Shown here: positions 5,040 through 20,906 of the stretch, piece after piece
Position numbering within the stretch: the stretch's first letter is position 1
Layout of the letters: the number at the start of each line of letters is the position of its first letter
DNA from: a virus
Direction: 5' to 3' (one strand)
IMG/VR virus record: IMGVR_UViG_3300008110_000072
Location: 1 to 64,000 of that record
Length of the DNA: 64,000 nt
Translations under genes and position numbers: made by a program
Notes under the pieces: generated by a model
Database searches by the model: none
The model's input: the letters and a program-made list of their open reading frames with translations, nothing else
What the model was told of the DNA's origin: nothing

Positions 5040-6945
5040 AGTAACCGCCTACAAGGACATTTACGAAAAACGCAATGGGCATCACATTCCAATCACCACA
5101 GCCCTTTCCCGTATACGGGATGGCAAGAGCCGGGAAAAGATTCTCGCTATACGAAGCACAGCAGACCCGTCTGCCGTAGACCAATTAAAGAAATCCCTCC
5201 CCTCGATTTGCTTTAGCGGCACATTCAGCGAGAGATTTGATAACAAGCTTATCGAACACAGCGGATATATATGCTGCGACCTTGACGACATTCCGCATGA
5301 TGAATTGCAGGACATGAAGCAGAAGGTGGCGCAGCTTAGCTATGTATATGCCGTGTGGATAAGCCCACGCGGGAACGGGCTAAAGTTCCTTGTGCGTATT
5401 GCTAAGCCCGAAAAGCACCGCGAACACTTTGCTGCGCTCACGCAATACTTTCAGGATATATCCGGCAAGTGGGATGGCAGCAGTGTAAACGAGAGCCGCG
5501 TTTGCTTTGAAAGCTGGGACGAGGACATTATCATCAAGGATGATGTGAAGCCGTTCACAGAGGTGTATATCACCACAAAGGAGGTGAGCAGGGAAATGGT
5601 GGATGGAGACGAAACATTCAAGCGGCTCCTGACATGGCTCACCAACAAAGGCAAATCCTTCGCATCCGGAGAGCGCAACAACTTTCTATTCCGCCTTGCG
5701 AGCGCATGCTGCAGGTTTGGTATATCAGAGGAGAACTGCTTCTATTATTGCGACAGCAACTTCATTAGCGGGCAGAGCGACTTCACTAAGCGCGAATGCA
5801 AGATAGTGATTGCCTCCGCGTATAGAGCCAATGCGAGTAAGTCTGGGAGCGCAACATTCGACAAGGACATTCTGGTTGAGAAGAAGAGCATGCAGGAGGT
5901 GGCTCTTGAAACTCCGCAGGAGATATACGATGAAACCATTCGTCCGGCGGATGTAATCTTCGCAGACGATGTGCAGGACGGCATCATGTCTCTATACAAC
6001 AACGGATACGAAAGACTGGAGGGAATAGGCGTGCGCGAGATAGACACGCATTACAAGATGAAGCGTGGGGAACTAACGCTGCTGTCGGGTATAGGAAACA
6101 TGGGTAAGAGCCAAATCAACAAGTGGATGCTCCTGATGCATGCAGTGCTATACAAGCGCAAGTTTGCCATATTCGCTCCGGAGGATAATCCCGCAGAGGA
6201 ATTCTACAACGACCTCATCGAGATAGTGCTTGGAGCGGACTGCGTATATAGTCCTGAGTTCCCGAATAAACCCAGACCAACACTGGGGCTATACATGATG
6301 GTGAGGGAGTGGGTGAACGAGCATTTTATATTCATCCACCCGGAGAAGAGCGCCCCCACCCCGGAGTATATACGGGAGCGCTTTCTTGAGTTAATTATTA
6401 AGAAGCGCGTTGATGGCTGCATCATTGACCCGTGGAATCAGCTCACCAACAACTACGAGTTATACGGCGGGCGTGATGACAAGTATCTGGAGGTGCAGCT
6501 TGCCGAGTTCTCCAGATTCGCGCAGCAGAACGAGGTGTATATGATAATCGTGGCTCACCCTAAGAGCCTGAAGAAAGTGGGCGAGGACTATCCATGTCCG
6601 GATGTGTTCGACCTTGCCGGAGGCGCAATGTGGAATAACAAGTGCCACAACATTCTGATATATCACCGCCCGCACAACTGCTCAGATGTAAACAGCCCTG
6701 CGTGTGAGTTTCACGCCAAGAAGATTAAGAAGCAGAAGGTGGTGGGGAAGAAAGGCTTTAGCGAGTTTCGGTTTGACTTTGCCACACGCAGGTATGTGTT
6801 TGAGAACAATCGCGACCCAATGTCCGAGGCGGTGGCCGCAAAGCTAAATTGGGCTATATGGGAAAAACCTAAATCTAATTATACAAAACATGAAGAGATT
6901 ATTCACACCCCTCTCCCGCCCGATGATGACGAAGTTCCCTTCTAA
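5032..6945 (+). CDS. VirE_N/BT4734-like primase-helicase
   Basis: Residues about 1-170 resemble the BT4734/VirE N-terminal domain common in Bacteroidota mobile elements, with an ICCDLDDI acidic motif (about 80-87) and SPRGNGLKFLVRI (about 112-124), consistent with a primase-polymerase-like module. A helical linker follows. The C-terminal half is a DnaB/RecA-type helicase with Walker A LLSGIGNMGKSQ (about 350-361) and Walker B-like GCIIDPWNQL (about 462-471). The protein ends in an acidic tip, DDDEVPF, like SSB tails. ATG 5032 overlaps the initiator stop; an in-frame ATG at 4999 is less likely because the family begins at the Lys-Val-Thr-Ala-Tyr strand. Confidence 0.8.
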   Translation: MIKVTAYKDIYEKRNGHHIPITTALSRIRDGKSREKILAIRSTADPSAVDQLKKSLPSICFSGTFSERFDNKLIEHSGYICCDLDDIPHDELQDMKQKVAQLSYVYAVWISPRGNGLKFLVRIAKPEKHREHFAALTQYFQDISGKWDGSSVNESRVCFESWDEDIIIKDDVKPFTEVYITTKEVSREMVDGDETFKRLLTWLTNKGKSFASGERNNFLFRLASACCRFGISEENCFYYCDSNFISGQSDFTKRECKIVIASAYRANASKSGSATFDKDILVEKKSMQEVALETPQEIYDETIRPADVIFADDVQDGIMSLYNNGYERLEGIGVREIDTHYKMKRGELTLLSGIGNMGKSQINKWMLLMHAVLYKRKFAIFAPEDNPAEEFYNDLIEIVLGADCVYSPEFPNKPRPTLGLYMMVREWVNEHFIFIHPEKSAPTPEYIRERFLELIIKKRVDGCIIDPWNQLTNNYELYGGRDDKYLEVQLAEFSRFAQQNEVYMIIVAHPKSLKKVGEDYPCPDVFDLAGGAMWNNKCHNILIYHRPHNCSDVNSPACEFHAKKIKKQKVVGKKGFSEFRFDFATRRYVFENNRDPMSEAVAAKLNWAIWEKPKSNYTKHEEIIHTPLPPDDDEVPF

Positions 6946-10015: not shown

Positions 10016-10051
10016 ATATATTTTGGTTTGGTAATCTGCCAATATCGGCAT

Positions 10052-10124
10052 TGCTCCGGAGGCGGGAATCGAACCCGCCCTCACATACGCATTTAGCGTA
10101 TCTGACATGCCACATGTCTCCGGA
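10052..10124 (-). ncRNA. tRNA-like minihelix TLS-1 (longest, near-cloverleaf)
   Basis: On the minus strand: acceptor TCCGGAG/CTCCGGA (7 bp), T arm GCGGG-TTCGATT-CCCGC, discriminator G, then CA. Two further hairpins fill the interior: ACATG/CATGT with a 3-nt loop where a D arm would be, and ATACG/CGTAT with 7-nt loop CTAAATG where an anticodon arm would be. The D-arm position lacks the conserved GG loop, so it is not a normal tRNA. It begins 8 nt after the upstream stop codon, and the downstream ATG is 38 nt after the discriminator. Hairpin TGCC/GGCA follows. Confidence 0.8.
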
Positions 10125-10127
10125 TGC

Positions 10128-10144
10128 GGGGATTATATATCCCC
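10128..10144 (-). other. Stop-codon hairpin before TLS-1
   Basis: GGGGAT paired with ATCCCC around a 5-nt loop; the TAA stop of the upstream gene lies in the loop region. It immediately precedes the minihelix. Confidence 0.6.
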
Positions 10145-10528
10145 AATAAATTTGCGAGCGCCAGAAGCCTCCAGATATAACGACCTTGCGCCCTCGGTCA
10201 TGTTATCGTAGTCCGCCTTGAGGATGTGTGCCACGCAATGCTCCCACCACTCCAACTGCGGCTTGTCGCCCACATATACCACCTGCTCAAATATCCGTGC
10301 GCTGTATCCCTTTTCCGATGTCTTGGTTATAGTGCCAACTATATACTTATGGTTGCCACCTATAAACCCACTATCCAAACCACGCAAGAATTGCAGCTTA
10401 TTGTGCATGTCTTCGTGGTTGGTTATTTCCACGCCTGTGTAGTTGAACTTGATGCTGCTATCGGTGGTTGGATAATACACCATGCCGTAGCTGAATTTGT
10501 CCTGCGATTGCTCTTTTAAGTTTTCCAT
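10133..10528 (-). CDS. Hypothetical protein, 131 aa
   Basis: A soluble mixed alpha/beta protein with no recognised family; it includes the stretch FIGGNHKYIVGTITK and an acidic helix (WWEHCVAHILKADYDN). The gene follows a 195-bp gap holding a terminator and a 24-bp tandem repeat rather than a minihelix, so it probably begins a new transcript. TLS-1 follows its stop codon. Confidence 0.7.
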   Translation of the reverse strand: MENLKEQSQDKFSYGMVYYPTTDSSIKFNYTGVEITNHEDMHNKLQFLRGLDSGFIGGNHKYIVGTITKTSEKGYSARIFEQVVYVGDKPQLEWWEHCVAHILKADYDNMTEGARSLYLEASGARKFIGDI

Positions 10529-10570
10529 TTGTATAAAGTGTTAAAGTGTGAATTGTAAATGTCTGAATAA

Positions 10571-10618
10571 AATTTGATTTGTCCAAAAAAAATAAATTTG
10601 ATTTGTCCAAAAAAAATA
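10571..10618. repeat. Perfect 24-bp tandem repeat (two copies)
   Basis: aatttgatttgtccaaaaaa and four more bases are repeated exactly at 10571-10594 and 10595-10618, 43 bp before the gene at 10528. It could be an operator or a slippage product; no consensus promoter was found in this gap. Confidence 0.8.
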
Positions 10619-10664
10619 TTTGTTCAGCCCGAAAAAGAAATCGTTTGCCGAAAAATACCTTTGG

Positions 10665-10714
10665 TAAAAAACAAGGCGGGGGCAAAAATTTTCGCAAGGA
10701 AAAAATCTGCCCCC
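10665..10714 (-). terminator. Intrinsic terminator inside accessory operon
   Basis: On the minus strand GGGGGCA (10714-10708) pairs with TGCCCCC (10684-10678), with an inner TTTTC/GAAAA stem, followed by a T6 tract (10671-10666). It ends the transcript of the gene at 11014 before the next gene group. Confidence 0.7.
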
Positions 10715-10723
10715 TACCTGCAT

Positions 10724-11014
10724 CTATATGCGTGTCCAAGTTAGCTGCGCATCACGCCACGCATCATCCTCATCGGTTTTCCACGAGAAGTATAAAGTTT
10801 CGGTGAGAGGCTCGAAGCGTATATCGGTTTCCGGCTTAATGTGCAAGAATTCCGTGCCGTAGTGGTCGCACAGCAATTGCTGTATTTGAAATGCGGCATT
10901 GCGTTCATCGTTGTCCGCTTTCATGTTGAGAACGCCTATCAGGTCGCCCTCATCGCTCCATAGCGCAGGGATGCTTCCGGAAATGCGCCTAATCATAATG
11001 CTTGGTTTGTTCAT
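10724..11014 (-). CDS. Hypothetical protein, 96 aa
   Basis: A compact alpha/beta protein of unknown function (IMIRRISGSIPALW near the N-terminus, YFSWKTDEDDAWRDAQ near the C-terminus). It is coupled to the upstream gene (TAATATG junction) and followed by a terminator. Confidence 0.7.
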   Translation of the reverse strand: MNKPSIMIRRISGSIPALWSDEGDLIGVLNMKADNDERNAAFQIQQLLCDHYGTEFLHIKPETDIRFEPLTETLYFSWKTDEDDAWRDAQLTWTRI

Positions 11015-11015
11015 A

Positions 11016-11207
11016 TTAGATATACGGATTTGGTTGTAAAACATTTATTGCGTTATCGAGTGCCTGTATAGCATCCCATAGGTATGCCTCTGTGGCCTCC
11101 TCCTTCACCACGCCTTTTTCGGGGTGGAGGTTTTGCTGCAAAACGGCAAGGTTGTTTTTGAGCATATACAATTCCTGAATTGTATCGTGTAATTGCTGTG
11201 GTGTCAT
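11016..11207 (-). CDS. Small helical protein, 63 aa
   Basis: An all-helical, probably coiled-coil protein (TIQELYMLKNNLAVLQQNL) of unknown function. Start ATG 11207 is chosen over a longer frame whose extension has no leader. It ends 2 nt before the next ATG. Confidence 0.65.
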   Translation of the reverse strand: MTPQQLHDTIQELYMLKNNLAVLQQNLHPEKGVVKEEATEAYLWDAIQALDNAINVLQPNPYI

Positions 11208-11218
11208 GTGTATACGAA

Positions 11219-11476
11219 TTAAATTACTGGTAAAACATATTCTTCTCCGGATGCAGATGCCCCGCACATCGCACCCCCATCATTGCCCTCGTCATCACGC
11301 ATCGGGAGTATATAGCTGCCATCCGTGAATATAATCACCGGTGGGTTGCAATACCACGCCATGCCCCTCATCTCCTCGTCTGTGAGATAGCGCACCTCTG
11401 CAATGGTTTTGCCTACGAGCGTTTTGTTTGCAAGGTCAATCCAACGCTTGCGTACATCAAACTTTTGTGTGTTCAT
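11219..11476 (-). CDS. Conserved hypothetical protein, 85 aa, behind TLS-2
   Basis: The segment VRYLTDEEMRGMAWYCNPPV, then ILPMRDDEGNDGGAM, resembles a widespread uncharacterised family of small proteins with a conserved Trp-Tyr turn and an Asp-Asp-Glu-Gly-Asn motif; I know of no function. The ATG at 11476 follows TLS-2. An in-frame extension (MADYLYKVY) is the conserved leader read as protein; it is identical in the gene behind TLS-3, so it is regarded as leader. Confidence 0.7.
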   Translation of the reverse strand: MNTQKFDVRKRWIDLANKTLVGKTIAEVRYLTDEEMRGMAWYCNPPVIIFTDGSYILPMRDDEGNDGGAMCGASASGEEYVLPVI

Positions 11477-11510
11477 ATAAACTTTGTATAAGTAATCTGC
11501 CATATGGCAT

Positions 11511-11569
11511 TGCCCCGGATGAGGGAATCGAACCCTGCGTATGTATACGCCCGCCTCTCGGCATCCGGC
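11511..11569 (-). ncRNA. tRNA-like minihelix TLS-2
   Basis: Acceptor CCGGAT/ATCCGG (6 bp, terminal G-G mismatch), T arm CAGGG-TTCGATT-CCCTC (one mismatch), discriminator G. Interior hairpins: GCC-GAGA-GGC (GNRA tetraloop) and GCGTA-TACA-TACGC. The most diverged copy; compared with the majority, the second T-stem pair changes C-G to A-T and the seventh acceptor pair changes G-C to T-A, both preserving pairing. It lies 8 nt after the upstream stop and 36 nt before the next ATG. Confidence 0.75.
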
Positions 11570-11577
11570 TGTGTATA

Positions 11578-12072
11578 TTAGCTATGCATGTCTACAAACA
11601 CCACCCAACGCTCGCCCCCCTCGTGTATGTAATCATCCACTTGTGTAACACCAGTGTGGTCAAAGTGGCAATAGTAGAAGTTATCGCGTAATACATCAAA
11701 CCCGATTGCGCTCCCGCCTCGCCCATGTGTTTGGCACAGATATTCGGCTAAGTGTTTTAAACTCCATAATTCATAGTTATCCCATTCATATATGTTGGTT
11801 TCGCCCGCTCTAAATTTGTCTGCCGCCACATTCCCATATCCCTCGTCTGCAAACCATGTTTTATAAATATTGTTGCAGTCGTCTATGGTCATGTTTTCTT
11901 TTGGCTGATAGCGACCCTCTCCCGTGCTGTATACGGAATTGCTTTGGCTTACAGCCCCACACATCTCTCTCCAATTGTTTTCGTTGCCCCAATCAGATAT
12001 AAAGGTTGTGGCTCTTTCGCACGCTTCTGCTCCTGAGTTAGCGTGCAACACGATGAAATGTAAATTGTGCAT
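11578..12072 (-). CDS. Hypothetical protein, 164 aa, behind TLS-3
   Basis: An aromatic, acidic alpha/beta protein with no recognised family. The N-terminus (HFIVLHANSGAEACERAT) resembles a strand-helix of a small ferredoxin-like fold, and the C-terminus includes FDHTGVTQVDDYIHEG. The ATG at 12072 follows the TLS-3 leader, which is identical to the TLS-2 leader. Confidence 0.7.
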   Translation of the reverse strand: MHNLHFIVLHANSGAEACERATTFISDWGNENNWREMCGAVSQSNSVYSTGEGRYQPKENMTIDDCNNIYKTWFADEGYGNVAADKFRAGETNIYEWDNYELWSLKHLAEYLCQTHGRGGSAIGFDVLRDNFYYCHFDHTGVTQVDDYIHEGGERWVVFVDMHS

Positions 12073-12106
12073 ATAAACTTTGTATAAGTAATCTGCCATA
12101 TGGCAT

Positions 12107-12155
12107 TGCTCCGGAGGCGGGAATCGAACCCGCCTTTACGCCCTTGCGCTCCGGA
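12107..12155 (-). ncRNA. tRNA-like minihelix TLS-3 (minimal, 49 nt)
   Basis: TCCGGAG/CTCCGGA acceptor (7 bp) stacked on GCGGG-TTCGATT-CCCGC, discriminator G. Only 14-15 nt replace the D and anticodon arms, and they form a mini-hairpin CGC-AAGG-GCG. No anticodon is possible. It begins 6 nt after the upstream stop; the ATG is 36 nt after the discriminator; hairpin TGCC-ATAT-GGCA follows. Confidence 0.85.
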
Positions 12156-12161
12156 TGTGTC

Positions 12162-12545
12162 TTACGCCCCTCCCAACATGCGCCTTTCATGCGCCTCGTA
12201 TCTTGCATCTATATACGCTTGGCGCTCGTATTCCCGCACCTGCTGCGCCTCGTCTGGATACTCCGCACGGAAGTAGTCCCAATTTATTTCGTCCACTACG
12301 CTCCTGCCATTGCATCGGTTGCACATTACATGGAAGTTGCCCGCATCGTAATCCTGCAAGCCCTCCCAATCGCCCTCCTCACGCATGGTGTCGAGCATCT
12401 TCTGCTCGTCCAATCCGTATTCAAAGACGATTCCCTCGCCATTGCACTCAGGGCATAGTATACGCTTAGCGGGCAGGTAGATGGTGCGTGGCGTGTCTGT
12501 AATCTCGCAGTACAGCGCAGGGTGTGTAAATGCTACTTTTTTCAT
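12162..12545 (-). CDS. Zinc-ribbon protein, DnaJ-type CxxCxGxG motif, behind TLS-4
   Basis: Two cysteine pairs, CPECNGEG (about residues 31-38) and CNRCNGRS (about 75-82), form half of a DnaJ-like zinc-binding module, so the protein should bind one zinc and may be a small chaperone-like or nucleic-acid-binding factor. The C-terminus is a long charged helix (EAQQVREYERQAYIDARYEA). Start ATG 12545 directly follows the TLS-4 leader; a long upstream extension translates the minihelix and is rejected. Confidence 0.75.
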   Translation of the reverse strand: MKKVAFTHPALYCEITDTPRTIYLPAKRILCPECNGEGIVFEYGLDEQKMLDTMREEGDWEGLQDYDAGNFHVMCNRCNGRSVVDEINWDYFRAEYPDEAQQVREYERQAYIDARYEAHERRMLGGA

Positions 12546-12581
12546 ATATGTTTTGCTTGTATAATCTGCCGATATTGGCAT

Positions 12582-12630
12582 TGCTCCGGAGGCGGGAATC
12601 GAACCCGCCTTTACGCCCTTGCGCTCCGGA
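12582..12630 (-). ncRNA. tRNA-like minihelix TLS-4 (minimal, 49 nt)
   Basis: Same 49-nt core as TLS-3, but with a different downstream hairpin (TGCC-AATATC-GGCA) and a different upstream stop-codon hairpin. It lies 7 nt after the stop of the DUF3846-like gene and 38 nt before the next ATG. Confidence 0.85.
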
Positions 12631-12631
12631 T

Positions 12632-12646
12632 AGCATTTTACATGCT
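12632..12646 (-). other. Stop-codon hairpin before TLS-4
   Basis: AGCAT paired with ATGCT around GTAAA; the loop contains the TAA stop of the upstream gene. Its A/T-richer stem differs completely from the other stop hairpins. Confidence 0.55.
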
Positions 12647-13027
12647 GTATACGCGGAATCCACCGCCAGTGCCGAGTACATGGTCGCGCCATGCCTCGCA
12701 ATTCTCCTTGCCCACCCAATTCACCATCTTGCGCACCTCGTCCACAGACATACGCACCGGAGCGTTCTCGCCCTCGTCATTGCTGCCTATAATCACTCCG
12801 TTGCCGCATATCGGGTAAGCCCAATCGGACATTATATATCCGCCCTCAAACTCGTTATACAAGCCCTCGTCATCAACAAACAGCGTGTCGCTCTCGTTGA
12901 ATTGCACGGGGCAAGCGAATGTGCTTACGCCCTCTCCGAGCAGGGGATATATGTCCCGATGATTTGTGCCGCTGATTTCGGCCTCGTACACTTCGCGCTT
13001 TGCGCTGTCAATCACAATCACTTTCAT
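12638..13027 (-). CDS. DUF3846-like protein, 129 aa
   Basis: Strands MKVIVIDSAKREVYEAEI, then FVDDEGLYNEFEGG and ICGNGVIIGSNDEGEN match the layout of DUF3846 proteins (antirestriction-adjacent phage and plasmid proteins of unknown role): a predicted small alpha/beta fold with a conserved Asp-Glu-Gly and a Gly-Asn turn. No minihelix precedes it; it follows the gene at 13295 after 13 nt. Confidence 0.6.
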   Translation of the reverse strand: MKVIVIDSAKREVYEAEISGTNHRDIYPLLGEGVSTFACPVQFNESDTLFVDDEGLYNEFEGGYIMSDWAYPICGNGVIIGSNDEGENAPVRMSVDEVRKMVNWVGKENCEAWRDHVLGTGGGFRVYSM

Positions 13028-13040
13028 AAATATATATTGG

Positions 13041-13295
13041 TTAAAATTTGCCTGAGTTGTTATATGCCCAATCGTGAACAAACTCGTGAATTGCATCTTG
13101 CACCTCGTCGAGGTCGAGCACTTCGTCATCGTCCGTATAGTTGCTCTCCCAATCAATGCGCTCGTCATAGTTATCTATCCGGTGTGTAATGGTGAGGGAT
13201 AATTCCACCTCTTTGCTGCCGTATACAAGAACGGCCTCTAAGCTTATGCGCTTGGTTGTCCCAACCAACTCCGCATCGTTTACGATTATTTCCAT
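13041..13295 (-). CDS. Hypothetical acidic protein, 84 aa
   Basis: A beta-rich N-terminus (EAVLVYGSKEVELSLTITH) and a very acidic middle (YTDDDEVLDLDEVQDAI). The net negative charge would fit a DNA-mimic or anti-defence protein, but that is only a suggestion. It follows the gene at 13509 by 7 nt. Confidence 0.65.
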   Translation of the reverse strand: MEIIVNDAELVGTTKRISLEAVLVYGSKEVELSLTITHRIDNYDERIDWESNYTDDDEVLDLDEVQDAIHEFVHDWAYNNSGKF

Positions 13296-13302
13296 GTGTG
13301 TG

Positions 13303-13509
13303 TTAGTAAGTTATTTCTTGAATTTTCTTTACGGCCTCTTGTATAATCTGCTCGTCAGTGCGCTTGTCCATTGCCTTGTATAGCGTGTCTGCACACTGGT
13401 CATAAACCCCCCAAATCAGGGGGGCTTTGGCGTTATACATTTTTATCATCGCTCTGTCAGCGCAGAAATTGCGCAAGCCTCGCAGGTCGTGGATTAGGTG
13501 TGGGTACAT
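13303..13509 (-). CDS. Hypothetical helical protein, 68 aa
   Basis: A short helical protein of unknown function. Its ATG at 13509 follows the upstream stop by one nucleotide. The coding sequence contains a strong GC hairpin (CCCCCC 13407-13412 with GGGGGG 13419-13424), unusual inside a small gene. Confidence 0.65.
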   Translation of the reverse strand: MYPHLIHDLRGLRNFCADRAMIKMYNAKAPLIWGVYDQCADTLYKAMDKRTDEQIIQEAVKKIQEITY

Positions 13510-13510
13510 A

Positions 13511-13723
13511 TTATTTTGCGTGAGTTTTGATTGTGCCTTCGATACTTTCCCATGCACGAGATACGGCATACGATTCATCAACATCGCTGAACATGACATC
13601 GCTATATGCGTGTCCGTAGTAGCGGTCGAGCCATTGGTGTTGGTCTTGCGGAAGGATTGACTTTGCCCGCTGCACTTCGTAATTGAGCGCTCTGAGTGTG
13701 GTGGGGGGATTTGTAGGTAACAT
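13511..13723 (-). CDS. Hypothetical protein, 70 aa, behind TLS-5
   Basis: A helical protein with central QHQWLDRYYGHAYSDVMF; not recognised. The ATG at 13723 lies 43 nt beyond the TLS-5 discriminator. It is coupled to the next gene. Confidence 0.65.
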   Translation of the reverse strand: MLPTNPPTTLRALNYEVQRAKSILPQDQHQWLDRYYGHAYSDVMFSDVDESYAVSRAWESIEGTIKTHAK

Positions 13724-13764
13724 AAGCGTAAATTGTTTTGTGTGTATAATCTGCAAAATTGCAT

Positions 13765-13815
13765 TGCTCCGGAAGCGGGAATCGAACCCGCCATATACGC
13801 CCTTGCGTTTCCGGA
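13765..13815 (-). ncRNA. tRNA-like minihelix TLS-5
   Basis: Acceptor TCCGGAA/TTCCGGA, so the seventh pair is A-T instead of the G-C of TLS-3/4: a compensatory change. T arm GCGGG-TTCGATT-CCCGC, discriminator G, interior mini-hairpin ACGC-AAGG-GCGT. The downstream hairpin is TGCAA/TTGCA rather than TGCC/GGCA, again compensatory. It begins 15 nt after the upstream stop. Confidence 0.85.
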
Positions 13816-13818
13816 GGT

Positions 13819-13831
13819 GGGCATCACGCCC
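13819..13831 (-). other. Stop-adjacent hairpin before TLS-5
   Basis: GGGC-GTGAT-GCCC begins at the last base of the upstream TAG stop codon. Confidence 0.5.
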
Positions 13832-14049
13832 TATAACCCATTGAACTCTTTGTTTTCGCCCACCATTCTGCGGAGGTAGTGATTCATGGTGTTGCATAGC
13901 ACCTCAGCCATATGCACCCATTCAAGTTCAGGCTCAGATTCATGCACGGAGGCAAAGTCGTTATACATGAGGCGGCACACAATATCGCCCGAAGGATTTT
14001 TTACAAGGATTTCTCCTTTAAGGAACGGATTTTTTTCGTATGTATACAT
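13831..14049 (-). CDS. Hypothetical protein, 72 aa, behind TLS-6
   Basis: A mixed alpha/beta protein (GEILVKNPSGDIVCRLMYNDF, first strands) of unknown function. Start ATG 14049 is preferred over 14055 because it aligns with the A-rich leader of the other minihelix genes. The stop overlaps the stop-adjacent hairpin before TLS-5. Confidence 0.65.
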   Translation of the reverse strand: MYTYEKNPFLKGEILVKNPSGDIVCRLMYNDFASVHESEPELEWVHMAEVLCNTMNHYLRRMVGENKEFNGL

Positions 14050-14082
14050 AAACATTTGGTTTGGTAATCTGCCATATGGCAT

Positions 14083-14133
14083 TGCTCCGGAAGCGGGAAT
14101 CGAACCCGCCATATACGCCCTTGCGTTTCCGGA
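14083..14133 (-). ncRNA. tRNA-like minihelix TLS-6
   Basis: Identical to TLS-5 in acceptor (TCCGGAA/TTCCGGA), T arm and mini-hairpin, but followed by the TGCC-ATAT-GGCA hairpin of TLS-2/3/9. Core and downstream hairpin therefore assort independently. It lies 7 nt after the upstream stop and 35 nt before the next ATG. Confidence 0.85.
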
Positions 14134-14136
14134 TGC

Positions 14137-14151
14137 GCCCTCAGCTAGGGC
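14137..14151 (-). other. Stop-codon hairpin before TLS-6
   Basis: GCCCT-AGCTG-AGGGC; the TGA stop of the gene at 14371 spans the loop and the second strand. Confidence 0.55.
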
Positions 14152-14371
14152 TTGTATAGAAGTGTGCAAGTGCAATCGCTGCCACCTTGCTGATGTTGCG
14201 CCTTATGCCCACCACTTGTATGAGTGCGGGGAGCGACAGGTCTTTACACACCTCGGCAAAGGCCATGCCCTCTGCAAGCTTGTGTATAGGATTGGCGTTG
14301 GCAGGAAGCGAGTTCTTGCGTAGGTGTGCCACCACTGCGGGGGTGAGCATGCCGTGTTCTGTGTAGGTCAT
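14141..14371 (-). CDS. Hypothetical helical protein, 76 aa
   Basis: A helix-rich protein (TPAVVAHLRKNSLPANANPI, then a second helical pair) whose arrangement could be a small helix-turn-helix DNA-binding domain; this is uncertain. It has its own strong promoter (14404-14436) rather than a minihelix, and its leader is 32 nt. Confidence 0.65.
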   Translation of the reverse strand: MTYTEHGMLTPAVVAHLRKNSLPANANPIHKLAEGMAFAEVCKDLSLPALIQVVGIRRNISKVAAIALAHFYTSPS

Positions 14372-14403
14372 GTGTATAAACGACAAAGTGTGAAACGAAA
14401 GGA

Positions 14404-14436
14404 CAAATGTAATGTGGCGGGAAAACGAAATGCAAA
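14404..14436 (-). promoter_or_regulatory. Internal promoter of accessory operon
   Basis: Minus strand TTTG (14436-14433), 21 bp, TACATTTG (14411-14404). Both boxes match the Bacteroidota consensus. The transcript would cross TLS-6 to TLS-2. Confidence 0.8.
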
Positions 14437-14537
14437 TTTTTTTTCGACAAAAGCCGGAAAAAGTTTCGATTTGCTGCTTATTATCTAAGATAAAGGATGC
14501 GAAAAAATTTTTTACAATTTTCATTTTGCTCCTTACC

Positions 14538-14708
14538 TCAGTCTGCATCCCTCTCGTGATACAGCAGGAGCGCAGCCATTGCGCTGTATACGCAAAGGAA
14601 GAAGCACTCAGCCACGATATATTCCGGGCTGATATACATCAGGACAAGGGTGAAAAATACGGCTACAACGCACAGAAACGCGAGGCCATTGCGGAGAAAG
14701 TTAGGCAT
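14538..14708 (-). CDS. Small two-pass membrane protein, 56 aa, behind TLS-7
   Basis: Two hydrophobic segments (NGLAFLCVVAVFFTLVLMYI and FFLCVYSAMAALLLY) separated by a short acidic turn indicate a two-pass membrane protein. The ATG at 14708 is 42 nt after the TLS-7 discriminator. Function unknown. Confidence 0.65.
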   Translation of the reverse strand: MPNFLRNGLAFLCVVAVFFTLVLMYISPEYIVAECFFLCVYSAMAALLLYHERDAD

Positions 14709-14748
14709 GTGTATATAATTTGTGTATAATCTGCGCACCATTACGCAT

Positions 14749-14800
14749 TGCTCCGGAGGCGGGAATCGAACCCGCCTTGTATACGCCCTTGCGCTCCGGA
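14749..14800 (-). ncRNA. tRNA-like minihelix TLS-7
   Basis: Acceptor TCCGGAG/CTCCGGA, T arm GCGGG-TTCGATT-CCCGC, discriminator G, mini-hairpin CGC-AAGG-GCG followed by TATACAA. The downstream hairpin is TGCG-(8 nt)-CGCA, a third compensatory version of that stem. It lies 9 nt after the upstream stop. Confidence 0.85.
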
Positions 14801-14803
14801 TGT

Positions 14804-14816
14804 GGGGTGTTACCCC
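14804..14816 (-). other. Stop-codon hairpin before TLS-7
   Basis: GGGG-TAACA-CCCC; the TAA stop of the upstream gene is the beginning of the loop. Confidence 0.6.
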
Positions 14817-15100
14817 ATATAGCTGGTATCAAACCCGTTATTGCGTAAGCAATCTAAAATGCATTCGGGAAGAGAAAACACGCCATCGTAATCAACCAAC
14901 ATCTTGTTTTCATCAAACCATAGGCCGCCCTCCGCATACCACTCGCCACCGCCCGTGGCTATGTCATACATTTCAAACCACCCGTAGGAGTTATCCTCCC
15001 GCACACCCACCTCCACACGGAGTGTAACCTCCTCATGTTTAAGCGTGCCAAATGAGTTTTCTAATGACAAATGCTCCACCGCTTCGAATATAAATTCCAT
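14810..15100 (-). CDS. Hypothetical protein, 96 aa, behind TLS-8
   Basis: An acidic beta-rich protein (EEVTLRVEVGVREDNSYGWF, then EWYAEGGLWFDENKM) of unknown function. The ATG at 15100 is 40 nt beyond the TLS-8 discriminator. Confidence 0.65.
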   Translation of the reverse strand: MEFIFEAVEHLSLENSFGTLKHEEVTLRVEVGVREDNSYGWFEMYDIATGGGEWYAEGGLWFDENKMLVDYDGVFSLPECILDCLRNNGFDTSYMG

Positions 15101-15138
15101 AACTTTTTTTGGTTTGTGTATAATCTGCAAAATTGCAT

Positions 15139-15209
15139 TGCTCCGGAGGCGGGAATCGAACCCGCTATACAGCACACACACACAAGGCTGTATACGCCAA
15201 CGCTCCGGA
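15139..15209 (-). ncRNA. tRNA-like minihelix TLS-8 (with extra hairpin)
   Basis: Acceptor TCCGGAG/CTCCGGA and T arm GCGGG-TTCGATT-CCCGC with discriminator G. The interior has CG-TTGG-CG and an 8-bp hairpin TATACAGC/GCTGTATA with a 13-nt GU-rich loop. The downstream hairpin is TGCAA/TTGCA. It lies 10 nt after the upstream stop. The same 8-bp stem with a 3-nt loop occurs in TLS-9, so these two may keep an arm deleted from TLS-3 to TLS-7. Confidence 0.85.
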
Positions 15210-15214
15210 TGTGT

Positions 15215-15229
15215 GGGGCTTAGCGCCCC
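15215..15229 (-). other. Stop-codon hairpin before TLS-8
   Basis: GGGGC-GCTAA-GCCCC; the loop ends with the TAA stop of the upstream gene. Confidence 0.6.
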
Positions 15230-15543
15230 TCTTCGGTTTCCGTTATCCGGATGATTTCAAGCGGGTGCATGGTGTTTGTATATCCACTGATACTTTGGCC
15301 GTTGTATACATCGTTTTTAACTATGCTAATAGTTAAGTGTCTGTTGTTATACCAAAGTTTGTAGTAATATTTTGTGCCAATTAACAGGCCGTGCAATTCA
15401 CTTGCAAGGGCAAGGCCACGCGACATTCCATGACACGCTGATTCGTGTAGGTGTTGGTATTCAAACAGCAGGGAAATAATTCCTTTGATTGGCTGCTCTT
15501 TAAGAGCGCTTGTTGTAAGGCCGACTAATTTAGCTTGTAACAT
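15220..15543 (-). CDS. Hypothetical protein, 107 aa
   Basis: A mixed protein with an N-terminal helical region rich in His (EYQHLHESACHGMSRGLALA) and a C-terminal strand region; no family recognised. It follows the lipoprotein gene after 33 nt without a minihelix. Confidence 0.65.
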   Translation of the reverse strand: MLQAKLVGLTTSALKEQPIKGIISLLFEYQHLHESACHGMSRGLALASELHGLLIGTKYYYKLWYNNRHLTISIVKNDVYNGQSISGYTNTMHPLEIIRITETEEGR

Positions 15544-15576
15544 AATTGTATACGAAGTATAAGAGTGAAACAAAAA

Positions 15577-15807
15577 TTAACGGATAACTACGGCTGTGTT
15601 GGTTTCATCATGTGTATACAACACGGGGATGGTGTCGCCTACATGATAGGCCGTGTCAATGTGCAGGGCGTATACAACACCCCCTCCCAGAGGGCGCACA
15701 ATACGCTTGCAATTGTGTGGACGCTTGATTGTGGCAAGCGGGGTGTGTGATTGCTCACATGATGCGAGAGATGCGAGGGCGAGGACGAAAACGATAGCTT
15801 TGAACAT
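15577..15807 (-). CDS. Small lipoprotein, 76 aa, behind TLS-9
   Basis: The first 17 residues (MFKAIVFVLALASLASC) are a lipoprotein signal peptide with lipobox LASC, so the mature protein should be anchored by a lipidated Cys17. The remainder is a short beta-rich domain (VVYALHIDTAYHVGDTIPVL). A phage lipoprotein exposed in the envelope could act in superinfection exclusion; this is inferred from type and size only. The ATG is 37 nt after the TLS-9 discriminator. Confidence 0.75.
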   Translation of the reverse strand: MFKAIVFVLALASLASCEQSHTPLATIKRPHNCKRIVRPLGGGVVYALHIDTAYHVGDTIPVLYTHDETNTAVVIR

Positions 15808-15842
15808 ATATATTTTGGTTTGTATAATCTGCCATATGGCAT

Positions 15843-15901
15843 TGCTCCGGAGAGGGGATTCGAACCCCTATACAGCTATGCTGTATACGCCTTGCTCCGG
15901 A
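15843..15901 (-). ncRNA. tRNA-like minihelix TLS-9
   Basis: Acceptor TCCGGAG/CTCCGGA, T arm AGGGG-TTCGAAT-CCCCT, discriminator G. Two T-stem pairs differ from the majority GCGGG/CCCGC and both remain paired, and the loop is TTCGAAT. The interior hairpin is TATACAGC-ATA-GCTGTATA. It lies 12 nt after the upstream stop; hairpin TGCC-ATAT-GGCA follows. Confidence 0.85.
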
Positions 15902-15908
15902 GGGCGGA

Positions 15909-15924
15909 ACGGGCTATTGCCCGT
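15909..15924 (-). other. Stop-codon hairpin before TLS-9
   Basis: ACGGGC-AATA-GCCCGT, 6 bp with the TAG stop of the upstream gene starting in the loop. Confidence 0.6.
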
Positions 15925-16774
15925 CTTCGATAAGTCCCGCTGCTTTGAGCATGTCGGGCAAGTTCCATGTGTTGCGATTTGTCATCGTGATGGGCGAGAT
16001 GATGATTTCGTCATTCTTGCGCTCCACAGAGGGCGTGTTTGTGTTCAGGAAGTGCTTGTGTGTGTCGTGCCACGCACAGAACCCGCACTCCTCACCGAGG
16101 GCTGTGCCAGTCATGCCCATAAGCATGGCGCGGTTCATGGGTGTGCTGAGTGCGCTGACGAGTGTATACGGGTCGAGAGGCTGCCCATAATCGCATACAT
16201 TGATTTTCCACAAATAATGCCACCGCTTGCCGTTGCCATGAGCATCACCGCCCCACTCAAATATAATGCGAACATTATATTTCGCGAGGGCTGCCGTATA
16301 CAAGTCGGCAATCATCATATATTTTTCGGTTGCCTCACGAGCATCCACACCTGCTGACATGCCGTGTATAACGCGGATGGTGAGGTTGGACTTTATACAT
16401 TCTTCGGGCTGAATTGTATAGAAGCACTCAGGCTGACCTTGCATGTATGCATCCACATCGAGAATTTCTCCGCATGTGTCCCGCACAAAATTCATTTCGT
16501 GCGAGGGGCTTGCCGGAATATTAAGTTCCGAAGGCTTGTATAATTTCTGCACATCGGGCAATGCCCCACCATAGGTGTTAAGGTGCATCAGCATTGTTTC
16601 GGCTGTCTTGTATATGCCTGCACCCACCCAATCGCCCTGCCATGCACGGCGTATGTGTTCGGAAATATTGGGTAGAACATTGCTAATCAGGTCTTTATAC
16701 GACATTTCTGCGTTTTGCGGCAAGCCCGTAGCGGTGGGCTTGCTTGCGTTGCGGGTGTTAGTGCGCTTTGCCAT
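15914..16774 (-). CDS. MoxR-associated partner protein (DUF7192-like)
   Basis: A 286-residue protein next to an AAA ATPase. The central region (EILDVDAYMQGQPECFY, then IRVIHGMSAGVDAREATEKY) and a strand-helix pattern with WGGDAHG resemble the Rossmann-like proteins, distantly related to von Willebrand A/CobT partners, that accompany MoxR-type ATPases in phages. Such pairs are thought to remodel a target complex; the target here is unknown. The N-terminal 25 residues are basic and unstructured. It is separated from the ATPase gene by 24 nt. Confidence 0.6.
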   Translation of the reverse strand: MAKRTNTRNASKPTATGLPQNAEMSYKDLISNVLPNISEHIRRAWQGDWVGAGIYKTAETMLMHLNTYGGALPDVQKLYKPSELNIPASPSHEMNFVRDTCGEILDVDAYMQGQPECFYTIQPEECIKSNLTIRVIHGMSAGVDAREATEKYMMIADLYTAALAKYNVRIIFEWGGDAHGNGKRWHYLWKINVCDYGQPLDPYTLVSALSTPMNRAMLMGMTGTALGEECGFCAWHDTHKHFLNTNTPSVERKNDEIIISPITMTNRNTWNLPDMLKAAGLIEDGQ

Positions 16775-16798: not shown

Positions 16799-17995
16799 TT
16801 ATTTGCGAAGGTTCTGTGGAAGGTTTGCCTCAATCGCACGCTTGTATACAACGCTTGCGTCATATCCGAGGCTGAAAAGCTTCTCAACACGCTGAATATC
16901 ACGCATCGACATTATCCAACCTGACTTGCCGGCAAGCCTATCGCGCTCAGCCCACACCATTTCACACGCTTGCTTGCTGAAGCGTGCAGCCTCCAGTGTG
17001 CGGTCGTATCCTGCGAATATACACACGAGGCGATTTTTGGCCGATGCATCGAGCGGGTTACGGCCTACATACGCCTCCGTAGCGCCATTGCCGAAGGTGT
17101 TGGCTGTGGCTATACAGATGAAATCAGGATGCTTTTTCACCATGCCACACGGGAATGCAGCCGTGTCATTTGCGAGACACATGTTTAAGGAACACAGCAA
17201 GTTAGGGTTTGCATTGTCGGCTTCATCGAGCATGAAAATCCCGCCCTCGCTATACATGCGGTAGAACTCCGTGGGTATGTATTCACCCGTGATTGGCGAC
17301 ATCATGCCAAATAGCTCACTTTTAAGCGATTGCGAAGAAAACGACATGGCTGCAAACGGCCTGCCAAGCGCCTCCGCCACTTGCTTGCCTATGTGTGATT
17401 TGCCTGTGCCTGCGGGGCCGTGTATATACACATGCTCGTTGAGATTCACCCACTCCAACACCTCGGCAAAAGCCTCGTGTGTAGCGCCTACGCTGTGTGA
17501 GGTTTCGTCAAGCCTCCGGACGACGATTTCTAAAGCCGAAGGCTTCGGCGCGTGGATGTGTATAAGCTTGCACACCTGCTCGATTTGCTCGTCTGACAAG
17601 GTGTTGGAGGGCTGACTTGACACGCCTAACAAGCTTATAGCTTGCTGCATCAAAGTGGCTGCCGTTACGGCTGAATCGGTTGCGGGGACAGCACCTTGTG
17701 CCGTGGCCGCTACATGTGTGTTTGACATATGTGTGTGTGTTGGAGATACATTTTCAACGGCCTCTGAAACAGCTACGCTGTTCGCAGGCGCTTTCTTGCG
17801 GGCTGCTACGATTGCCTGTGTAAGGGCAACTTTGCCGGATTGCGTTTTGTGGCATGTAATGCCAAGCGCGCTACAAACCTGCCGGAAATCGGCAAATTCG
17901 CCGGATAATTTATTATCCGTTGCCCACATTTGGGCTGTTTGAGATTGTGAAGGGACACGGAGCATCCCGATGCGAGTGTTGTGTGTGTTGGACAT
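16799..17995 (-). CDS. MoxR-type AAA+ ATPase
   Basis: Residues about 160-398 form an AAA+ module: Walker A GPAGTGKS (193-200), Walker B GGIFMLDEAD (251-260), sensor-type CIATANTFGNG, and a downstream arginine segment (NRLVCIFAGYD). The N-terminal 60 residues include a helical motif (FRQVCSALGITCHKTQSGK) resembling a SAP or HeH DNA-binding element, followed by a flexible Ala/Thr-rich linker. It should couple ATP hydrolysis to remodelling of a partner, most likely the adjacent gene's product. It is the first gene of the leftward accessory operon. Confidence 0.85.
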   Translation of the reverse strand: MSNTHNTRIGMLRVPSQSQTAQMWATDNKLSGEFADFRQVCSALGITCHKTQSGKVALTQAIVAARKKAPANSVAVSEAVENVSPTHTHMSNTHVAATAQGAVPATDSAVTAATLMQQAISLLGVSSQPSNTLSDEQIEQVCKLIHIHAPKPSALEIVVRRLDETSHSVGATHEAFAEVLEWVNLNEHVYIHGPAGTGKSHIGKQVAEALGRPFAAMSFSSQSLKSELFGMMSPITGEYIPTEFYRMYSEGGIFMLDEADNANPNLLCSLNMCLANDTAAFPCGMVKKHPDFICIATANTFGNGATEAYVGRNPLDASAKNRLVCIFAGYDRTLEAARFSKQACEMVWAERDRLAGKSGWIMSMRDIQRVEKLFSLGYDASVVYKRAIEANLPQNLRK

Positions 17996-20522: not shown

Positions 20523-20783
20523 ATGCCACCGCTCAAGAACATCCCGTTGTATACAAAACCGAAGGGAAGGCCGTGCAGGTATGACTTTTCGCCATTCAAG
20601 AACGCAAGCCATATGGCAATTGTTATTGAATGCGCCCCAACGGAGAACATATACAACAGCATCAAAAGCAGTTTTTCCCGATGGAGGAAGCGAAACAATA
20701 TATCTTCCGGCTTTGTGTTTGACATATACGAGGACAACATAACAATATGGAGGAGGCTCCCAAGAGAAAGCATCACACCCTGA
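20523..20783 (+). CDS. Hypothetical basic protein, 86 aa
   Basis: A basic protein with a helix SIKSSFSRWRKRNNI and a C-terminal strand (FVFDIYEDNITIWRRL), a pattern typical of small phage proteins with DNA-binding potential. Not recognised further. It starts 1 nt after the previous stop. Confidence 0.7.
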   Translation: MPPLKNIPLYTKPKGRPCRYDFSPFKNASHMAIVIECAPTENIYNSIKSSFSRWRKRNNISSGFVFDIYEDNITIWRRLPRESITP

Positions 20784-20786
20784 CGA

Positions 20787-20906
20787 ATGAATATTTTTTA
20801 CGAGTGGGGGAAAGCAAATCAGGAAGGCTGCCGTTCTACGGAATCGAGCATTATCTCCTACACGGCTGGCAGTTCTATCCAAACGCACACACAAATGTTG
20901 TTGTAA
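20787..20906 (+). CDS. Possible 39-aa peptide
   Basis: A 39-codon frame (MNIFYEWGKANQEG start) exactly fills the gap between flanking genes: it starts 3 nt after the preceding stop and ends 4 nt before the next ATG. A competing frame (20747-21088) overlaps both neighbours heavily. The tiling favours the short peptide, but its sequence gives no functional hint. Confidence 0.3.
   Translation: MNIFYEWGKANQEGCRSTESSIISYTAGSSIQTHTQMLL

Follow-up and report, generated by a model that had tools for sequence, protein, structure and literature searches.

A 64,000-nucleotide (nt) stretch of viral DNA, here called the window (positions 1 to 64,000 of IMG/VR virus record IMGVR_UViG_3300008110_000072, most of its 65,085 base pairs (bp)), carries nine short tRNA-like elements, E1 to E9, in gaps between genes on the minus strand (10051–15901). 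We consider that these elements are probably anticodon-less punctuation tRNAs, acting in cis within a polycistronic phage transcript. This reading draws on features visible in the DNA itself: the structure, conservation and position of the elements, the 12-bp length of their helix, a second hairpin with a fixed starting point and the replacement of an element by a true tRNA in a relative. The large terminase and portal proteins of the window phage match PHROG families and are ~21–26% identical to those of phages of Flavobacterium, Cellulophaga, Tenacibaculum and Maribacter, so its host is likely to belong to the Bacteroidota.

The common layout is a 7-bp acceptor stem, an insert, and a 5-bp T stem with the loop TTCGAWT. 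The nine window copies are as follows.

15842..15901, minus strand: minihelix E9; acceptor TCCGGAG/CTCCGGA, 25-nt insert, T arm AGGGG-TTCGAAT-CCCCT, then G-CAA.
15138..15209, minus strand: minihelix E8; acceptor TCCGGAG/CTCCGGA, 37-nt insert with a long hairpin, T arm GCGGG-TTCGATT-CCCGC, then G-CAA.
14748..14800, minus strand: minihelix E7; 18-nt insert (hairpin GCGC-AAGG-GCGT), then G-CAA.
14082..14133, minus strand: minihelix E6; acceptor TCCGGAA/TTCCGGA with the seventh pair compensated, 17-nt insert, then G-CAA.
13764..13815, minus strand: minihelix E5; core as in E6, different 3′ hairpin (TGCAATTTTGCA).
12581..12630, minus strand: minihelix E4; 15-nt insert, then G-CAA.
12106..12155, minus strand: minihelix E3; core as in E4, different 3′ hairpin.
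11510..11569, minus strand: minihelix E2, the most degenerate (10 of 12 pairs); two small hairpins replace the D and anticodon arms.
10051..10124, minus strand: minihelix E1; 39-nt insert with a mini D hairpin (TGG loop) and an anticodon-like arm.

An earlier sequence-only reading of the window had placed nine intergenic elements on this strand, and all lie where it put them, with 3′ ends agreeing to within 1–4 nt, the difference depending on whether an element is taken to include the discriminator and CAA. Across the 64 kb of the window there are nine matches to the T-arm motif GGTTCGAWTCC, always on the minus strand and inside an element (0.03 occurrences in shuffles). The proposed 7-bp (once 6-bp) acceptor and 5-bp T stem give a perfect 7 + 5 = 12 bp helix in eight copies; E2, the 6-bp copy, has a G.G at pair 1–72 and also a C.C in the T stem, which leaves that stem only 4 bp. 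Five copies (E7, E6, E5, E4 and E3) do carry a single 10–12-nt hairpin, within an insert of 15–18 nt, in place of the D and anticodon arms. An anticodon arm with a 7-nt loop is missing from eight of the nine; the earlier description needs qualifying for E1, which, like its orthologue in the related phage G004, keeps an anticodon-like arm with the loop CTAAATG, and which is the sole element called by ARAGORN, as tRNA-Phe(AAA).

All nine window copies are in coding orientation. The acceptor starts 6–15 nt past the upstream stop codon, as had been stated, and is followed in every copy by the discriminator and a CAA tail, a second hairpin without any spacer, a leader and an ATG; in the copies read, the ATG lies ~35–43 nt beyond the element, in approximate agreement with the earlier figure. 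When folded alone, most copies give a minimum free energy structure made up of a hairpin at the stop codon, the minihelix and the downstream hairpin, with E3 and E2 less clear.

The same architecture, in very different sequences, was found in at least 13 IMG/VR phage records, with 51 copies tabulated and up to 12 in one genome. Scanning IMG/VR with the terminase yielded 17 related records, weak ones aside; pattern scans added the carriers G011, G012, G023, G024, G025, G026, G028 and G031, and contigs L292 and L293 joined them. Where a terminase was found, its identity to that of the window (genome G000) ranges from 96% down to ~24%. Arrays lie in the early regions of relatives, with 12 copies in G001, eight in G004, three in G002/G003 and two in G008, and a same-strand stop codon stands −1 to 25 nt ahead of the element in 45 of the 51 copies. 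An element in G012 (L112, about 10500–10560) has the same layout, with acceptor GAGCTGC/GCAGCTC, CAA and a 3′ hairpin, and the loop AGCGATA in place of TTCGATT.

No terminase relatives were found in bacterial genomes. An insert-specific pattern gave one match in 84,980 bacterial and archaeal genomes, in the metagenome-assembled genome sequence L277, which we reject as chance (no tRNA call and, by eye, no acceptor structure). With model R1, no convincing minihelix was detected in the cultured phages Elemovirus, Panino, phi19:3, phi38:1, Calle_1, Gundel_1, MW202828, phi14:2 and crAss001; the BLAST matches to element DNA that we inspected in cultured phages were ordinary tRNAs, as were single pattern matches in tRNA-rich phages.

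Covariation was counted on 42 distinct cores with the insert removed, because MAFFT, given full-length copies, aligned the acceptor 5′ strand wrongly. Standard pairs fill 95.4% of the pair cells, changes on both sides of a pair occur at 11 of the 12 pairs, and the covariation score is 0.962, compared with 0.184 for shuffled cores and 0.14–0.19 when partners were slid; since the copies share descent, neither these nor the pairing counts below represent independent events. As the copies had been gathered partly by pairing, a fairer test started from GGTTCRANTCC sites without any pairing criterion: 38 of 54 such sites, in 12 phages, have a perfect 12-bp helix, compared with 7.3% when the upstream sequence was shuffled. 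Between E1 and its G004 orthologue, the seventh acceptor pair changes from G-C to A-U and the second T-stem pair from C-G to A-U. Acceptor/T-arm pairing, whose absence from homologous elements the sequence-only reading had named among the observations that would refute it, is kept in them through compensatory changes.

These changes also bear on the idea that gene gain and loss left the elements behind, as tRNA-gene remnants or as recombination seams marking sites of module exchange, now devoid of any RNA function. The cores of E3 and E4 are identical, as are those of E5 and E6, some orthologous junctions hold different element types, and relatives have degenerate full-length tRNA-like genes in similar gaps, all of which would fit such an origin. 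Decay would break pairs, however, yet here compensation restores them, the elements keep to the coding orientation, and their 3′ hairpin has been rebuilt at a fixed start with 16 different 5′ stem sequences; we consider remnants or seams distinctly unlikely.

The break between acceptor and T stem shifts between copies while the total stays at 12 bp. The helix is perfect over this length in 40 of the 51 copies (27 divided as 7 + 5 and 13 as 6 + 6), with one mismatch in ten and two in the last. All 51 have TTCGANT or TTCAATT as T loop, TTC[GA]A having been a search criterion. The discriminator and tail read G-CAA or A-CAA throughout the window and G004 copies, and N-CAA in most others, with N-CCA in 12 of 51 (ten in G001, two in G008); this difference may reflect hosts without and with CCA-encoding tRNA genes, respectively.

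Stubs liberated from the transcript could instead act in trans, by occupying the CCA-adding enzyme, EF-Tu, an aminoacyl-tRNA synthetase or a tRNA-targeting defence toxin. A complete tRNA top half and several copies per genome would suit such mimics, as would G(−1):C73, the hallmark of histidine tRNA in bacteria, which is present in 15 of the 51 copies, notably in G001 and G028. Acceptor stems and discriminators nevertheless differ widely within the single genome G001, so that there is no shared aminoacylation identity, and aminoacylation is ruled out as a general reading. None of the elements is free-standing, nearly all lying between a stop and a start codon in coding orientation, and we judge a role in trans very unlikely.

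Directly after the element comes a 3′ module of CAA and a hairpin that begins at a fixed point, with a stem that varies by compensation. Its copies in the window are listed here.

15830..15841, minus strand: 3′ hairpin after E9, TGCC-ATAT-GGCA; would form the 5′ end of the downstream mRNA.
15126..15137, minus strand: 3′ hairpin after E8, TGCA-ATTT-TGCA.
14732..14747, minus strand: 3′ hairpin after E7, TGCGTA-ATGG-TGCGCA.
14070..14081, minus strand: 3′ hairpin after E6, TGCC-ATAT-GGCA.
13752..13763, minus strand: 3′ hairpin after E5, TGCA-ATTT-TGCA.
12567..12580, minus strand: 3′ hairpin after E4, TGCC-AATATC-GGCA.
12094..12105, minus strand: 3′ hairpin after E3, TGCC-ATAT-GGCA.
11498..11509, minus strand: 3′ hairpin after E2, TGCC-ATAT-GGCA.
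10037..10050, minus strand: 3′ hairpin after E1, TGCCG-ATAT-TGGCA.

A stem of at least 4 bp starting exactly 4 nt past the acceptor strand is present in 35 of the 51 copies, with at most 20 at any other offset, and the mean fold energy is −4.4 kcal/mol compared with −2.0 kcal/mol after shuffling. That this start is fixed across 16 distinct 5′ stem sequences argues that the position of the hairpin is held relative to the tRNA 3′ end. When we scanned by the 3′ module alone, each match located before a gene start had a minihelix or tRNA ahead of it; the three remaining matches (L291, L294 and L295) had no such element and resemble coding sequence. An intrinsic terminator was rejected as an explanation, the helix being followed by CAATGC or CCATGC and the second hairpin, with no T run.

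On the other side of the element, a 4–7-bp hairpin lies around or beside the upstream stop codon before seven of the nine window copies.

15908..15925, minus strand: upstream hairpin before E9, around the stop codon of the upstream gene.
15215..15229, minus strand: upstream hairpin before E8, stop codon in the loop.
14803..14817, minus strand: upstream hairpin before E7, with the stop codon.
14137..14151, minus strand: upstream hairpin before E6, stop codon in the loop.
13819..13831, minus strand: upstream hairpin before E5, just past the stop codon.
12632..12646, minus strand: upstream hairpin before E4, stop codon in the loop.
10127..10145, minus strand: upstream hairpin before E1, stop codon in the loop.

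The insert, although variable in length, has a GG dinucleotide in all 51 copies, where shuffling predicts 41. Of the 31 short inserts, 29 have it within their first six bases (12.8 expected; maximum of 21 in 2,000 shuffles). Mostly, the GG forms part of a tiny hairpin's loop (xTGGx′ or AAGG). This hairpin could be a minimal D arm that gives G18–G19 to the T loop and so keeps the tRNA elbow. Like the constant 3′ module and the stop-codon hairpins, the GG was absent from the sequence-only reading.

Rfam returned no family match for the elements, either at the gathering threshold or at an E value of 10; RF00005 did not match the window elements even at the latter, and their best match in the tRNA clan was tRNA-Sec (20.2 bits against a threshold of 47). 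The strongest single clue that they are read by the tRNA-processing machinery is a true tRNA in an element slot with the same 3′ module: in G025 a canonical tRNA-Arg(UCU) (L270, 6532–6606) lies in the gap that separates a 160-amino-acid gene, which stops at 6511, from the next one, and is followed by A-CAA, the hairpin TGCAATATTGCA and the leader GATTATTAAAACTATATAATATG, the module that trails minihelices in G024 and G026. From these sequences, tRNA and minihelix appear to be interchangeable. In more distant relatives (~52% terminase identity), long tRNA-like elements lie in stop-to-start gaps, scoring, for example, 33.5 bits to RF00005 in G006 and 48.5 bits, with a shortened anticodon loop, in G010. 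This suggests a possible path from tRNA gene through degenerate tRNA to stub.

Full-length abnormal tRNA-like genes occupy stop-to-start gaps of relatives at L041 5701 (minus strand), L115 9509, L046 2212, L047 13165, L049 3802 and L123 19274, and several have a mini hairpin with a GAAAGA loop (CCGGAAAGACGGG-like) ahead of them. Separately, the cultured Cellulophaga phages phi38:1 (20669–20829; L287 1170–1330) and Calle_1 (L289 785–945) have a conserved ~150-nt tRNA-like element directly ahead of an RtcB tRNA-ligase gene, with acceptor TCCTTAG/CTAAGGA, T arm GGAGG-TTCGAAT and A-CAA; the two differ by a compensatory change from CTGCC/GGCAG to CTGCT/AGTAG. Being cultured, these phages may offer an experimental entry point.

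True-tRNA replacement also helps in weighing whether the elements are uncut structural barriers, that is, stable hairpins that halt exonucleases or ribosomes and thereby fix how neighbouring genes compare in stability and translation. Most copies do fold stably, and their location between stop and start codons is where such barriers would be expected. A plain hairpin, on the other hand, needs no invariant 7-nt T loop, no 12 bp kept across two partitions, no N-CAA/CCA tail and no tRNA able to take its place, which makes uncut barriers, to our minds, unlikely.

For punctuation by tRNA-like elements we propose the following course, in which the enzymes, the cuts and the effects on stability and expression are what we infer from sequence, as is co-transcription of the marks in one transcript, from gene order. 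The 12-bp acceptor/T helix, the T loop and the GG-bearing mini D hairpin would mimic the top half of a tRNA. Host RNase P would cut 5′ of the acceptor stem, just beyond the upstream stop codon. A 3′ tRNA-maturation nuclease, RNase Z or another, would make the second cut, past either the discriminator or C-A/C-A. The hairpin whose start coincides with that point would open the downstream mRNA, ahead of an A-rich leader and the ATG, while the upstream mRNA would end in the hairpin around its stop codon (in the window phage and its two close relatives G001 and G004). The operon would in this way be split into short mRNAs with structured, protected ends, each translated and decaying independently. 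Bacterial RNase P measures 12 bp, with a consensus of a 12-nt stem, a T loop and a 3′ RCCA (PMC10731613), and it cleaves a model hairpin of acceptor, T stem and T loop efficiently and correctly (PMC11143913). The tRNA mimicry suggested by the sequence-only reading is strongly upheld by covariation, the 12-bp helix, the invariant T loop, the N-C-A/C-A tail and true-tRNA replacement; its proposal of mRNA processing sites is the best explanation we have and fits the RNase P rules.

Several observations weigh against this proposal. The anchored 3′ hairpin is missing in about a third of copies, the upstream stop-codon hairpin is clear only in G000, G001 and G004, and several junctions of the same operon have no element at all. 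In 26 of the 51 copies, against an expectation of 16.8, nucleotides −1 and 73 would be able to pair, which may extend the helix to 13 bp in some cases, and pairing between leader and 3′ end is a reported anti-determinant for RNase P (PMC10731613). The CAA found instead of CCA in the window and most relatives implies a weaker RCCA contact with the enzyme. In several G001 copies (L041 8145–12125), moreover, the acceptor 5′ strand can also pair fully with the insert, as in CCCTGCA-TGG-TGCAGGG. Such copies, with two full partners for one strand, would be suited to bistable switches, in which the acceptor 5′ strand pairs with either the insert hairpin or the distal strand and turns the next gene on or off. 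In most other phages this local pairing is just 2–4 bp and the conserved pairing is the distal 12-bp one, and we consider switches highly improbable.

The head of the punctuated operon in the window consists of a gene for an AAA_5/MoxR-like ATPase (16799–17995) and then a DUF7192-like gene (15914–16774), with E9 next; G003 has an element at the matching position, after the same gene pair. The palindrome GTATAC is locally enriched (15 copies in 15–20 kb of the window, none in 0–5 kb), while its count over the whole window equals the Markov expectation.

The nearest systems each share part of this arrangement. Phage tRNA genes and arrays have the same acceptor and T arms, and one relative has a true tRNA-Arg in the slot. 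The elements differ from them in nearly all lacking a usable anticodon arm, in being dispersed between genes rather than clustered and, in the window, in going unrecognized by the Rfam tRNA model. The TMERs of murine gammaherpesvirus 68 are non-coding RNAs made by RNA polymerase III in which tRNA-like structures are joined to precursor-microRNA hairpins, with RNase Z-type cutting between them. They too combine viral tRNA-like structures, in several copies, with a hairpin behind each, but they belong to an animal virus and are non-coding RNAs, not marks within a protein-coding phage operon. The RNase P model substrate AT1 has the same 12-bp helix and T loop (PMC11143913, PMC10731613), and natural non-tRNA substrates include phage C4 RNA, M3 RNA and some mRNAs (PMC11143913), among them the his operon and T4 gene 32 mRNAs (PMC11143913, PMC10731613). 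Those are single sites, whereas here up to 12 intergenic copies with flanking hairpins occur per genome. If our reading is right, the elements would supply dozens of natural variants of a minimal RNase P/RNase Z substrate, differing in acceptor stems, tails and partitions of the 12 bp, on which long-debated substrate rules could be tested directly, and the series from true tRNA through degenerate tRNA to a 45-nt stub would give a view of a tRNA gene becoming a processing signal.

Arrays of this kind have no counterpart that we could find in Rfam, among cultured phages or in the literature searched (preprints and most subscription journals lay outside it), in which tRNA punctuation was only mitochondrial and RNase P sites only single cases; the phage array is likely to be new as a variant of tRNA punctuation. 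In mitochondria, tRNAs punctuate long transcripts and mRNA boundaries fall at tRNA ends (PMC3471875, PMC5474008), so that in both settings tRNA-shaped structures stand between the genes of a long transcript. The mitochondrial ones are functional tRNAs, whereas the phage marks mostly lack the anticodon arm and have an extra hairpin at a fixed 3′ position. On balance, we lean towards the fuller view that Bacteroidota-type phages evolved dedicated anticodon-less punctuation tRNAs, minimal substrates of host tRNA processing with mRNA-capping hairpins, that turn an operon into many short mRNAs, as a bacterial-virus counterpart of the mitochondrial system. If so, the genes of an operon would gain independent mRNAs without separate promoters, and tRNA punctuation would be no speciality of organelles, phages having reduced it to the half of the tRNA that maturation enzymes recognize.

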